This document shows, in pieces, positions 34,372-38,262 of a stretch of 64,000 bases of DNA; position 1 is the first letter of the stretch, and each line of letters begins with the position of its first letter. The position numbers and the translations under genes are program-made. The notes beneath the pieces are model-generated. The model made no database searches, was not told the origin of the DNA, and saw nothing but the letters and a program-made list of their open reading frames with translations. Origin of the DNA: Pelomonas caseinilytica (GTDB lineage: Bacteria; Pseudomonadota; Gammaproteobacteria; Burkholderiales; Burkholderiaceae_C); contig NZ_JAJTWT010000001.1 in assembly GCF_021353235.1 (NCBI RefSeq), positions 186,001-250,000 on the forward strand. Direction: 5' to 3'.

Positions 34372-35477
34372 TGGCCGCCGTTTCCCTGCGCAAGGTCGAG
34401 AAGACCTACCCCAATGGCTTCAAGGCCGTGCACGGCGTCGACCTCGACGTGCGTGACGGCGAGTTCATGGTCTTCGTCGGCCCCTCGGGCTGCGCCAAGT
34501 CCACGCTGCTGCGCATGGTGGCGGGGCTGGAGTCCATCACCGGTGGCGAGCTGCACATCGGCGGGCGCGTCGTCAACGACATCGCCCCCAAGGGCCGCGG
34601 CATCGCGATGGTGTTCCAGAACTACGCCCTCTACCCGCACATGACGGTCTACGACAACCTCGCCTTCGGCCTCAAGCTGGCCAGGACGGGCAAGGCCGAG
34701 CTGGATCAGCGCGTGCGCCACGCCGCCCAGCTGCTGGAGATGGAGCACCTGCTGGAGCGCTACCCCAAGCAGCTCAGCGGCGGCCAGGCCCAGCGCGTGG
34801 CCGTGGGCCGGGCCATCGTCAAGAAGCCCGAGGTCTTCCTCTTCGACGAGCCGCTGTCCAACCTCGACGCCAAGCTGCGCGCCGCGATGCGCGTTCGCCT
34901 GACCGAGCTGCACCGCAGCCTGCGCGACGCCGGCCAGCCCGCCACCACCATCTACGTCACGCACGACCAGACCGAGGCCATGACCATGGGCGAGCGCATC
35001 TGCGTGCTCAAGGCCGGCGTCATCCAGCAGGTGGACACGCCCACCGCCCTCTACGACCGCCCGGCCAATGCCTTCGTGGCCAGCTTCATCGGCTCGCCCG
35101 AGATGAACATCGTGCCAGCGCAGTTGCGCGAAGGCGCGGTGGAACTCGGCGGCGTACACCTGCCCCTGCCCGCCGGCCGCTTCAAGCCTCGAGCCGACGG
35201 CGCCGTGCAGTTCGGCCTGCGGCCCGAGCACATCGGCCTGAACCCCAAGGCCGGCAGCGTGCCGGTGCAGGCCACGCTGAAGTTCTGCGAGCACATGGGC
35301 TCCGAGGTCTTCACCTACTTCGACGTCGGCGGCCTGGCCTTCAGCGCCCGCGTGCCGGCCGAGGAGGGCACGGCCCTGACCGCCCTGCCCCGCGGCGCGG
35401 CCCTGTCGCTGCACTTCCAGATGGCGCATGCCCATCTCTTCGTGGCGGACGACCACGGCGCGAGCCTGCTCGCATGA
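34371..35477 (+). CDS. togA: ABC transporter ATP-binding protein (UgpC/MsmX/TogA-like)
   Basis: 368 residues. Walker A reads GPSGCAKST, with Ala where most relatives have Gly; the codon is GCC and the rest of the domain is intact: Q-loop FQNYALYPHMTVYDN, signature LSGGQAQRVAVGRAI, Walker B VFLFDEPLSNLDAKL, switch THDQTEAM. A C-terminal TOBE/MalK-like domain (FGLRPEHIGL) follows. It powers oligogalacturonide import with TogMN and may also be shared with other CUT1 systems. The start overlaps the TogN-like stop. Confidence 0.88.
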   Translation: MAAVSLRKVEKTYPNGFKAVHGVDLDVRDGEFMVFVGPSGCAKSTLLRMVAGLESITGGELHIGGRVVNDIAPKGRGIAMVFQNYALYPHMTVYDNLAFGLKLARTGKAELDQRVRHAAQLLEMEHLLERYPKQLSGGQAQRVAVGRAIVKKPEVFLFDEPLSNLDAKLRAAMRVRLTELHRSLRDAGQPATTIYVTHDQTEAMTMGERICVLKAGVIQQVDTPTALYDRPANAFVASFIGSPEMNIVPAQLREGAVELGGVHLPLPAGRFKPRADGAVQFGLRPEHIGLNPKAGSVPVQATLKFCEHMGSEVFTYFDVGGLAFSARVPAEEGTALTALPRGAALSLHFQMAHAHLFVADDHGASLLA

Positions 35478-36763
35478 ACCTGAACCGCCGCCTCGTCCTC
35501 GCCAGCGGCGCTGCGCTGGCCGCGCCTTTCGTCCACGCCCAGGACAAGCCGGTGCTGCGCTTCGCCTGGTGGGGCGGCGCCAGCCGGCACCAGGCGACGC
35601 TGGCCGCGCTCAAGGTCTTCGAGCAGCGCCACGGCGTACGCGTCAAGGCCGAGTACATGGGCTTCAACGGCTACCTCGAGCGGCTCACGACCCAGATCGC
35701 CGGCCGCTCCGAGCCCGACGTCATGCAGATCAACTGGGCGTGGCTCGCCATGTTCAGCAAGCGCGGCAACGGCTTCACCGACCTGAACGGGTTGAGCCGG
35801 GAACTCGCCCTCGACCAGTTCACCGAAGACGACCTCGCCTACGGCCGCGTGCAGGGCAAGCTCAACGCCCTGCCCACCTCCTTCAGCGCCCGCGTCTTCC
35901 TGTGGAACCAGACCGCCTTCGGCCGTGCCGGCATCGCGCTGCCCAAGACCTGGGACCAGCTCTTCGCCACCGGCCCCGCTTTCCGCAGCAAGCTCGGCGA
36001 CGCCCACTACCCGCTGGATGGCGAGCTCTACGACATGATCCTGCTGTCGCAGAGCTACATCCAGCAAAAGCACGGCACGCCTTTCGTCGACCCGGCCCGG
36101 CCGCGCGTGGCGATGAACGCCGCCGCGGCGCTGGAGTGGGTCCGGACCTACCAGCGCCTCGTCGACGGCCACGTGGCCACGCCGCTGCCCTTGCGCGCCA
36201 GCCTCGGCGGCGCCGAGAAGCCCACGGAACAACAGCCCGACTGGGTGGCCGGCCGCTGGGCCGGCAACTACACCTGGGACTCGGTCGTCGGCCTGCGCGC
36301 CTCCACGCTCGCCCCGGGCGAGAAGCTGGCCCTGGGCGCCTTCCCGATGCTGGAAGGCAGCCGGGACAGCGGCCTCTTCGGCCGCCCCACCGTCATGTAC
36401 ACCGTGGGCCGCAACTGCCGCCAGCCCGAGCTGGCGGCCCGGCTCGTGAACTTCCTGCTGGTCGACCCCGAGGCCGCGCGCATCCTGGGCCGCACCCGCG
36501 GCCTGCCCAGCGCCAAGGGCGCGCTGGCCGTGCTGCAGCAGGCTGGCGGGCTGCCCCCGCTGGAACTGGCTGCGCACGACCAGATCCAGGCCCAGCGCGA
36601 CGCCGGCCGCCTCATCCGGCCCGCGCCGCTGTTCGAGCACGCCCGCTTCCAGAAGTTCATGCGCGAGGTCTTCGAGACCATCGCCTACGGCAAGACCACC
36701 GACGCCGAAGCTGCACGCCGGCTGGTGGATGAGGGGAATGCGTTGTTGTCGAGGATTCAGTGA
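35474..36763 (+). CDS. togB: Extracellular solute-binding protein (TogB-like)
   Basis: 429 residues. The signal peptide MNLNRRLVLASGAALAAPFV ends near VHAQ; the twin Arg suggests Tat-like or Sec export. The mature part has the family-1 sugar-binding fold: FAWWGGASRHQATLAALKVF, PDVMQINWAWLAMF, and the C-terminal IAYGKTTDAEAARRLVDEGN. It should capture oligogalacturonides in the periplasm. It overlaps the ATPase gene by four bases and ends the transporter set; a 317-bp spacer with two long hairpins follows. Confidence 0.87.
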   Translation: MNLNRRLVLASGAALAAPFVHAQDKPVLRFAWWGGASRHQATLAALKVFEQRHGVRVKAEYMGFNGYLERLTTQIAGRSEPDVMQINWAWLAMFSKRGNGFTDLNGLSRELALDQFTEDDLAYGRVQGKLNALPTSFSARVFLWNQTAFGRAGIALPKTWDQLFATGPAFRSKLGDAHYPLDGELYDMILLSQSYIQQKHGTPFVDPARPRVAMNAAAALEWVRTYQRLVDGHVATPLPLRASLGGAEKPTEQQPDWVAGRWAGNYTWDSVVGLRASTLAPGEKLALGAFPMLEGSRDSGLFGRPTVMYTVGRNCRQPELAARLVNFLLVDPEAARILGRTRGLPSAKGALAVLQQAGGLPPLELAAHDQIQAQRDAGRLIRPAPLFEHARFQKFMREVFETIAYGKTTDAEAARRLVDEGNALLSRIQ

Positions 36764-36782
36764 TGGCGCGGCAACTCGATGG

Positions 36783-36880
36783 GCGCGAGAGCACGGGTGG
36801 GCCTGATGCTTCGTGTCCCCCGGGCCGCTGCGCGCCCCTCCTCCTTTACCTTCGCATCAGGCCCACCCGCGCTCTCGCGC
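36783..36880 (+). repeat. Hairpin element, copy A (unique stem, shared 44-nt loop)
   Basis: Arms 36783-36809 and 36854-36880 are complementary at 26 of 27 positions. The 44-nt loop 36810-36853 begins TTCGTGTCCCCCGGG and ends CTCCTCCTTTACCTTC. It matches the reverse complement of the loop of copy B at 40 of 44 positions, while the stems differ. Inside the loop a small hairpin (GGGCCGC-TGC-GCGCCCC) has one mismatched pair. Confidence 0.88.
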
Positions 36881-36921
36881 TGCGCCGCCGTCCTTCCACG
36901 CAGAAAACTCCTGCCGCCCGC

Positions 36922-37017
36922 GTCGGGATGTGGCTGGGCGCAATCGCGCAGGTAAAGGAGGAGGCCCGCGCAGCGGGCCGGGGGACACGAAGCGATTGCG
37001 CCCAGCCGCAGCCCGAC
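36922..37017 (-). repeat. Hairpin element, copy B (inverted relative to copy A)
   Basis: Arms 36922-36947 and 36992-37017 are complementary at 24 of 26 positions and unrelated to most of the stem of copy A. The loop 36948-36991, read on the minus strand, is the same 44-nt core as in copy A; its inner hairpin GGCCCGC-TGC-GCGGGCC is perfect. One inner pair is G-C in copy A and C-G in copy B, a compensatory change. Confidence 0.88.
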
Positions 37018-37080
37018 GCCGCCCTGCTCTCCGCACCAGCGCCCAAGGCGCCCGCCAAACCTCAGCACGCTTAACTCAGC

Positions 37081-38262
37081 ATGAAATCCACCGAGCGCAA
37101 GTTCAACTTCGTCACGCACGAGGACCCCGACACCGCCGCCCGCGTCACGCGGCTCACGCCGCCCGACGTCACCTGCCATCGCAACTACTTCTACCAGAAG
37201 TGCTTCACCAACGACGGCACGAAGCTGATGTTCGGTGGCGAGTTCGGCCCCGAGCCCAGCCCCAACTGGAACCTGCACCTGCTGGACCTGCCCACGCAGA
37301 CGGCCATCCAGCTCACCGACGGCGCACGCGAGAACACCTTCGGCGCCTTCATGAGCCCCGACGACCGCTTCGTGTACTTCGTGCGCAGCGACCGCAACCT
37401 CATCCGGCTGGAGCTGGCCACGCTGCAGGAAGAGGTCGCCTACGTCGTGCCCGAGGGCTGGGTGGGTTACGGCACCTGGGTGGCCAACAGCGCCTGCACC
37501 AAGATGGTCGGCATCGAGATCGCCGCCGCCGACTGGTTCCCGCTGAACACCTGGCAGAAGTTCAACGAGATGTTCCACAGCAAGCCGCTGTGCCGCCTCT
37601 TCAGCGTGGACCTGCGCACCGGCCAACGCAGCGTCATCCTTGAGCAGCGCGGCTGGCTGGGCCATCCGCAGTACCGTCCCTTCGACGACCGCACCGTCGC
37701 CTACTGCCACGAAGGCCCGCACGACCTCATCGACGCGCGCATGTGGTTCATCGACGAGGACGGCGGCAACCGCCGCTGCGGCAAGGCCCACGAGCCGGGC
37801 GAGAGCTGCACCCACGAGTTCTGGGTGCCCGACGGCAGCGCCATGATCTACGTGAGCTACCGCCACGATTCGCCGGAGCGCTGGATCTGCAGCCTGGACC
37901 CGGTCACGCTGGAGAACCGCGTCGTGATGAGCATGCCGCAGTGCTCCCACCTGATGAGCAACTTCGACGGCAGCCTCATCGTCGGCGACGGCTGCGGCCA
38001 GGTCAGCAACGACAGCAGCGCCAGCAACGAGATGCTGGTGGGCGACCCCTACCTCCACCTCTTCGACCTCAAGGCCGGCCCCCAGGGCCCCGCCACCCGC
38101 CGGATCGCCCGCCATGACAGCAGCTGGGGCGTCTACAAGGACAGCCGCCAGGTCACCCACCCGCACCCCAGCTTCACGCCCGACGGCAGGCAGGTACTGT
38201 TCAGCTGCGACGCCGAACGCGCCCAGGGCGCCGAGCCGGCCCTCTACCTGGCCGAGCTCTGA
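37081..38262 (+). CDS. ogl: Oligogalacturonate lyase (PL22)
   Basis: 393 residues without a signal peptide, as expected for a cytoplasmic enzyme. It has the seven-bladed propeller pattern with CHRNYFYQKCFTNDGTKLMF, GHPQYRPFDDRTVAYCHEGP (metal-site His and Gln region) and THEFWVPDGSAMIYVSYRHD, all conserved in PL22. It cuts imported di- and oligogalacturonides to unsaturated monomers for KdgF/KduD. Genes for a pectinesterase and pectate lyase follow at 2 bp and with overlap. Confidence 0.93.
   Translation: MKSTERKFNFVTHEDPDTAARVTRLTPPDVTCHRNYFYQKCFTNDGTKLMFGGEFGPEPSPNWNLHLLDLPTQTAIQLTDGARENTFGAFMSPDDRFVYFVRSDRNLIRLELATLQEEVAYVVPEGWVGYGTWVANSACTKMVGIEIAAADWFPLNTWQKFNEMFHSKPLCRLFSVDLRTGQRSVILEQRGWLGHPQYRPFDDRTVAYCHEGPHDLIDARMWFIDEDGGNRRCGKAHEPGESCTHEFWVPDGSAMIYVSYRHDSPERWICSLDPVTLENRVVMSMPQCSHLMSNFDGSLIVGDGCGQVSNDSSASNEMLVGDPYLHLFDLKAGPQGPATRRIARHDSSWGVYKDSRQVTHPHPSFTPDGRQVLFSCDAERAQGAEPALYLAEL

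Follow-up and report, generated by a model that had tools for sequence, protein, structure and literature searches.

Between an extracellular solute-binding protein gene and an oligogalacturonate lyase gene, the genome of Pelomonas caseinilytica carries two long hairpins in inverted orientation. The question they raise is what kind of element such a pair is, how it came to lie there and which nucleic acid strand has to fold. The initial annotation of the window (the whole stretch of 64,000 nucleotides that was analysed) had described stems of 27 bp and 26 bp with different sequences, around a 44-nt loop identical at 40 of 44 positions when read in opposite orientation, and had proposed either a mobile element or a structured RNA/ssDNA module. 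The features of the locus are as follows.

35474..36763, plus strand: extracellular solute-binding protein gene (PF01547), the upstream neighbour
36764..37080, no strand: whole intergenic stretch, 317 bp from the upstream stop codon to the downstream start codon; absent in sister species, where the genes abut or overlap (G019, G016, G001)
36783..36880, minus strand: hairpin A, its purine strand being the minus strand; arms 36783-36809 and 36854-36880; model match of 72.5 bits
36810..36853, minus strand: core of hairpin A, with GTAAAGGAGGA at 36849-36839, the inner hairpin at 36838-36822 (one G.G mismatch) and GGGGGACACG at 36821-36812
36881..36919, no strand: spacer between hairpins A and B
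36920..37019, plus strand: hairpin B, its purine strand being the plus strand; arms 36920-36947 and 36992-37019; model match of 67.7 bits
36948..36991, plus strand: core of hairpin B, with GTAAAGGAGGA at 36952-36962, the inner hairpin GGCCCGC-GCA-GCGGGCC at 36963-36979 and GGGGGACACG at 36980-36989
37081..38262, plus strand: oligogalacturonate lyase gene (Pectate_lyase22, PF14583), the downstream neighbour

The arms of hairpin A (27 nt each, 96% complementary) and those of hairpin B (28 nt each, 93% complementary, that is 26 pairs) both enclose 44 nt, which reproduces the stem lengths first described, and a comparison of the two cores, each read on its own purine strand, gives 4 differences in 44 positions, as had been stated. 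The compensatory change proposed for the inner hairpin was found at one pair, C-G in B and G-C in A; the neighbouring pair that differs is a G.G mismatch in A and does not fit the proposal. The 41-nt core with up to three mismatches occurs twice in the window, in comparison to a mean of 0.00 in 100 shuffles, and RNA folding of the 281-nt region gave z = -7.9. With DNA parameters, the purine strand folded at -46.2 and -45.2 kcal/mol and the complement at -43.5 and -38.7 kcal/mol. At gathering score, Rfam 15 returned no family for the hairpins (the only match in the window was a tRNA), and the matches of the hairpin region below that score were confined to microRNA stem models and a single lncRNA model. 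Neither a promoter-like nor a terminator-like site was present in 36700-37100. The core may resemble helices 81-82 of 23S rRNA.

The window hairpins are one copy of a doublet that is dispersed in numerous bacteria of soils and waters, with copies in Burkholderiales (Roseateles/Pelomonas, Rhodoferax, Hydrogenophaga and others), Rhodocyclaceae-type MAGs and Pseudoxanthomonas. The own genome gave ten strong matches (E 1.9e-10 or better), lying two by two at five places, while the other 35 of the 45 matches had E values of 0.007 or worse. Inner arm A, GGGCCTGATGC, is common to all five pairs, and so is inner arm B (around GCAATTGC), in which the window copy is one base off. The description of the stems as different holds between A and B, with the limit that each inner arm is shared by the five pairs. 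The outer arms of the window copy are unlike those of the other copies, yet they are still paired. Three of the four other pairs have about 310 bp in common and the fourth at least 244 bp, and no transposase was found within the pairs. With regard to a MITE, there is thus a shared unit of 244-312 bp in the own genome as well as an empty site, and no target-site duplication was established. A further common upstream repeat (CGACCCATCTGGGACATTCGCC...), about 115 nt beside the doublet, was noticed in three of the own-genome copies (L305, L306, L307), with a diverged version in the fourth.

Outside the own genome, the exact core pattern was found in at least 118 stretches of GTDB genomes, with 80 loci among the matches listed. 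The taxa among these matches were Rhodoferax, Hydrogenophaga, Curvibacter, Pelomonas/Roseateles, Methylibium, Variovorax, Ramlibacter, Aquabacterium, Oxalobacteraceae, Rhodocyclaceae, Sulfuritalea, Pseudoxanthomonas and several further MAGs; a Nostoc record is probably a contaminant, and a Chloroflexi match (L081) has no stem and was set aside as a chance match. Matching copies were also present in G008 and Pelomonas sp. Root405. The expectation that the core would not be confined to this site was borne out, as was the expectation that copies would carry flanking inverted arms, since, with G.T counted as a pair, 20 or more of the 25 stem positions are paired in 74 of the 80 exact-core copies whose flanks are complete. 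In the own genus, a covariance model (R1) gave 50 matches, spread over 11 of 20 genomes. In the order it matched 18 of 399 genomes, the own one being among them (counts there are lower bounds, as only 10 candidates were scored per genome), and in genus g44 it matched 6 of 7, with a maximum of 19 in one genome and none in the single-contig G437. Two plasmid records with the core were both from Variovorax. A phage origin was rejected: a 227-base query had no match in 50,697 phage records, and the core pattern was found in one IMG/VR contig only. In that contig (L208, 7370-7413) the core has a stem and follows a coding region, close to where the stretch ends.

On its purine strand each hairpin has an outer stem of about 25 bp; within it lie an internal loop of purines that hardly varies and a small inner hairpin whose length differs between copies. 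Between outer stem and core there is often G-N-A opposite G-N'-A, where N and N' covary (79.5% standard pairs, the three commonest types being represented by 16 to 50 copies each). This is followed by AGGTAAAGGAGGA, the inner hairpin and GGGGGACACG; variants of the core are AGTNAAGG and GGGGGACATG, or a stem that runs on up to the core. Among 125 copies that could be parsed (25 of 150 could not), 93 have an identical 12-nt 5' core, 95 a triloop and 76 a GNA loop. A C precedes the loop in 73 of the 76 GNA copies, and GNA occurs on 23 of 46 distinct inner stems. For GNA triloops, extraordinary stability in DNA is reported (PMC4686876). In the two energy tables that we used, the energies were practically equal for all triloops, so the tables did not discriminate between DNA and RNA. 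No conserved sequence was found outside the hairpin in the 100 hairpins with a parsable core and full flanks (27 of 127 were left out).

In the first model alignment of 19 gap-free copies, 97.9% of the cells pair, in comparison to 69.3% in shuffles. The corresponding values for an alignment of 150 copies (12 of the 162 model matches fell outside it) were 95.0% and 56.4%, with a covariation score of 0.929 against 0.200 in shuffles and 0.105-0.145 for slid structures; this alignment was fitted to the model, and its counts lean towards the model. The number of pairs with two-sided change, 29 in the 150 copies, showed no excess over shuffles (28.6), because nearly all pairs vary. The sequence of the stem changes freely while its pairing stays, and the centre of the hairpin hardly changes. 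A conserved core with variable stems and selection on structure, both claimed earlier, are therefore supported by the stem covariation and the cores.

The mismatches in the stems carry information on the strand. With arms chosen on Watson-Crick pairing alone, 120 of 127 hairpins could be used (the other seven being too short or having fewer than 15 Watson-Crick pairs in 24); read on the purine strand, they held 221 G.T against 27 A.C and 60 G.A against 12 C.T mismatches. On the complementary strand G.T becomes A.C and G.A becomes C.T, thus it is the purine strand that has to fold. The same was seen in the 30 hairpins with arms less than 50% alike, where G.T exceeded A.C in 24, the reverse occurred in none and six were ties. 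The ratio of G.T to A.C was 46:5 in pairs and 17:0 in singles where the purine strand is antisense to both neighbours, and 48:8 and 20:0 where it is sense; single hairpins in these contexts were nine sense and nine antisense. The equal bias in both orientations implies that host mRNA is not where selection acts, unless antisense transcripts matter as much, and an element acting only in host mRNA was rejected on this ground. Judged from sequence variation in this one family, this suggests that selection acts on the fold of the purine-rich strand in every hairpin, irrespective of the direction in which the flanking genes run. The proposal of a structured RNA/ssDNA module thus gains a defined fold, which may be one of ssDNA or of RNA.

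The hairpins are arranged in a regular way. Of 43 neighbouring pairs less than 250 nt apart, 42 are in (-)(+) order with a median gap of 45 nt, and the 84 clusters comprise 41 (-)(+) doublets, 42 single hairpins and one triple, although 16 clusters lie at contig ends and weak partners of singles may have been missed. One of 128 model matches (L088) is absent from these counts as well as from the context, flank, strand-bias and end-tag counts and from the clusters of neighbouring proteins. Besides the 16 at contig ends, 43 clusters lie between codirectional genes, 19 between convergent and five between divergent genes, and one inside a called gene; the genes were called by a simple caller of our own, which seems to misread strands in some G206 loci. 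Convergent junctions are enriched over codirectional ones (p 0.002, against 457 element-free junctions), and counting junctions gave no significant depletion between divergent genes (p 0.41). Flanking stops lie at a median of 33 nt from the element (n 81), flanking starts at a median of 89 nt (n 53). Recurrent sites within operons, named by eye from translations, are pccB-pccA, a Rubisco region before a cbbQ-like gene and a hydrogenase-maturation pair. A recurrent mobile gene beside the elements was considered and rejected, as the protein clusters (at least three loci, first 70 residues, judged by eye) looked housekeeping. The arms of two hairpins in one locus (L131, 5634-6786) are almost identical; these hairpins stand 1 kb apart in (-)(+) order around a small 179 aa ORF, between convergent genes.

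Comparison of the same sites in relatives indicates how the doublet behaves over time. In G019, G016 and G001 the window site has no doublet and its two genes abut or overlap; in G017 the coordinates, the only basis there, put the two matches no more than 22 nt apart. With the doublet the stretch is 317 nt in G000 and 313 nt in G007. G005 has a doublet before the same lyase gene and no match to the upstream gene, and G011 has a different sequence at the site. The remaining genomes were uninformative: only the lyase side was matched in eight (G018, G013, G008, G009, G015, G002, G012, G010), only the elements in G006, and nothing in three of 20. At pccB-pccA, the gap is 20-23 nt in five of the 16 loci parsed out of 30 (those in which the pccA start was obtained; minus-strand loci were unparsed), and the model found elements in three of the 30 loci, besides the pcc-site copies that were compared separately. 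Dispersed copies together with empty sites at the window locus support the earlier reading of dispersal as insertion.

The stems themselves were then compared between copies at one site. In the copies before the lyase gene (G000, G007, G005), 30 stem positions differ and 28 keep their pairing, 18 by two-sided change and 10 via G.T, while two lose the pair; the counts come from three comparisons per hairpin that are not independent. At the pcc site, for which 14 loci were given and hairpins A and B were parsed in 11 and 12, pairing is kept at 310 of 408 differing positions in A (97 lose it in one copy, one is unpaired in both) and at 391 of 543 in B (125 and 27), species pairs in different register being skipped (10 of 55 for A, 21 of 66 for B). 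In place, compensation thus accounts for most of the change in the stems, though less cleanly as distance grows. Gene conversion from copy to copy may also contribute. It had been proposed that each insertion creates its own flanking inverted repeat; this is not supported, since arms are common within the genome and same-site arms change mostly by paired substitutions, and from these two observations it follows that the stems drift by compensation.

As to enzymes that might mobilise the doublet, Y1_Tnp genes occur in all 20 own-genus genomes, with or without the element, and none of 27 distinct Y1 loci in the genus showed a hairpin by R1 (flanks of about 1.5 kb per side at eight loci and of about 2.5 kb at 20, one locus being in both sets, out of 40 matches in the list). 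Four hairpin-rich genomes, G206 (19 hairpins), G439 (12), G438 (10) and G434 (8), had no match to Y1_Tnp, RVT_1 or Y2_Tnp at E 0.001, and G437 of genus g44 has one Y1_Tnp match and no hairpin. Resident Y2_Tnp or RVT_1 proteins as movers in g44 were rejected on this basis, with the reservation that 14 control genomes were likewise without a match to the Y2_Tnp profile.

The feet of the hairpins were inspected for the tags of known repeats. In 118 hairpins (nine of 127 were left out), GTAG, GTGG, CGTC and TGTC were no commoner than in shuffled flanks. At the 5' foot GTAG was found in three and GTGG in six of the 118 (shuffled means 3.8 and 5.8), and CGTC in ten (shuffled mean 6.9, maximum 14); at the 3' foot the numbers were one, one and three. 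The stem of about 24 bp reaches to the foot and all its outer pairs change on both sides, in place of the short conserved stem of a REP. The doublet is built like a REPIN, as an inverted doublet in extragenic space, and fails REP membership, which we rejected for lack of a GT[AG]G foot, of a short conserved stem and of a cognate RAYT in G206, G434, G438 and G439 by PF01797.

Among Rfam-type RNA motifs, variable covarying stems around a nearly invariant loop are found as well; the doublet differs in having no Rfam match at gathering score and an orientation independent of host transcription. Integron attC sites act as folded ssDNA and leave much of their stem sequence free, a likeness to the present hairpins. 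The present hairpins differ in forming no arrays and in having their conserved part in the internal loop and not at the ends. A close likeness is that to REPINs, described as inverted REP doublets tied to RAYT genes (PMC3116915), and to REPs with GT[AG]G feet, which a HuH survey links to tnpAREP genes (PMC6006769): there, as here, hairpin doublets are extragenic and inverted, have singles alongside and are empty in relatives. The present doublet has in contrast a hypervariable stem of about 24-26 bp, a fixed internal-loop core, no GT[AG]G foot and no linked Y1 gene, and its copies are few (at most 19 found per genome). GTAG repeats are given stems of 5-13 bp and an end tag in PMC3733652. The same paper describes CGTC repeats as small palindromes with stems of 8-9 bp, loops of 4-5 nt and a CGTC tag, mostly head-to-head dimers and seemingly without a dedicated transposase; these share the dimeric form with our doublet, which has long stems, a core of about 44 nt and no tag. 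Literature searches, with a coverage that ends short of subscription papers and preprints, returned nothing for six core strings and no description under related topics.

We tentatively favour, at somewhat less than even probability, a mobile or formerly mobile, REPIN-like non-coding doublet, whose folded purine strand, probably as ssDNA, would be bound by a putative protein. Two long inverted hairpins would spread, or would once have spread, into gene junctions as a unit of about 310 bp. The acting form would be ssDNA exposed in replication or repair, and the recognition site the nearly invariant purine internal loop, held between the outer stem and the triloop hairpin. A putative trans-acting protein would bind this loop and move, copy or use the doublet. 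The stem would drift in sequence by compensatory change because it would only need to be long and paired. Counted against this reading are the single hairpins (42 of 84 clusters), the pairs lost at the pcc site (97 of 408 in A, 125 of 543 in B) and the four hairpin-rich genomes without a Y1_Tnp, RVT_1 or Y2_Tnp match. The upkeep of structure at fixed sites exceeds what is expected of a decaying mobile repeat, which hints at a host function. We place ssDNA ahead of RNA, not by far: ssDNA is favoured by the transcription-independent bias, the lack of a conserved flank and of a promoter-like or terminator-like window site, and the many C-closed GNA triloops, and RNA by wobble tolerance and the position after stop codons.

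Alternatively, the purine strand may act when transcribed, by read-through from one side and antisense from the other, for instance as an insulator that works in both directions or as an element at transcript ends, in either case by stalling RNA polymerase or by binding an RNA-binding protein. The median of 33 nt from a flanking stop, the enrichment at convergent junctions (p 0.002), the sites within operons and the well tolerated wobble pairs, G.T fitting RNA too, all agree with such a device. However, the antisense bias is as strong as the sense bias in pairs and singles, the singles are evenly divided, and no conserved promoter or U-run stands beside the hairpins, so that we consider it possible but rather doubtful. 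The position after stop codons would also suit ordinary intrinsic terminator hairpins, but TTTT follows within 45 nt of the 3' arm in one of 100 hairpins, nothing terminator-like lies in 36700-37100 and the core is nearly invariant; a U-run terminator was rejected, and this explanation has hardly any probability left.

The paired changes could in principle arise without selection. Quasi-palindrome correction is an established mutational process, and neutral remnants whose arms are matched only through template switching within the palindrome, one arm being copied onto the other, would show such changes. But this process gives no reason for G.T over A.C on one defined strand, nor for an invariant core, whose 12-nt 5' part is identical in 93 of 125 copies; purely mutational upkeep of the palindromes was rejected on the bias of 24 to 0 in arms less than 50% alike, and the neutral reading is hard to hold and, in our estimate, improbable. 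Membership in the REP/REPIN family, with a resident RAYT as the mover, would account for inverted doublets at extragenic sites and could draw on the Y1_Tnp genes present throughout the own genus. Set against it are the four hairpin-rich genomes without Y1_Tnp, the Y1_Tnp of G437 without a hairpin, the absence of hairpins from the 27 own-genus Y1 loci and of a GTAG or CGTC tag. A divergent Y1 enzyme missed by PF01797 would be required, which makes this origin very improbable.

Returning to the mobile doublet with a folded purine strand, extragenic palindromes of bacteria are mostly ascribed to RAYT transposases and short tagged hairpins, and here is a doublet without tag, short stem or enzyme. 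Its stem mismatches reveal which strand must fold and make host transcription an unlikely reason, and the family points to a putative protein that reads a folded strand. The DNA-or-RNA question for palindromes becomes testable on more than 100 natural variants, with a family model of stem and core for which Rfam 15 has no match in the window. In a wider and more speculative form, to which we give a minor share of belief, the doublet would represent a widespread class with a fixed purine loop between a stem of free sequence and constrained length and a GNA-capped inner hairpin; the protein that would read it as folded ssDNA would belong to neither the Y1/Y2 HUH nor the reverse-transcriptase families searched, and the doublet would be kept after insertion for host benefit and would be an independent counterpart of REP/RAYT.

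Other palindromes were noticed at the same junctions. Before the lyase gene, another palindrome-rich sequence is present in L349 (G011), L348 (G009) and L350 (G015), in G011 and G015 around GATCCCCCGNGGGGAC; different sorts of sequence have thus been drawn to this junction. CACAGAGGCACAGAG and its inverse form a second palindromic repeat, which lies before the lyase gene of G008 (L347, 2160-2217) and also in the own genome (L305, 2516-2580). In the pccB-pccA gap of another genus (L300), an unrelated-looking long palindrome (GGACGCAGAGGACGCAGAG...) stands where relatives carry the doublet.
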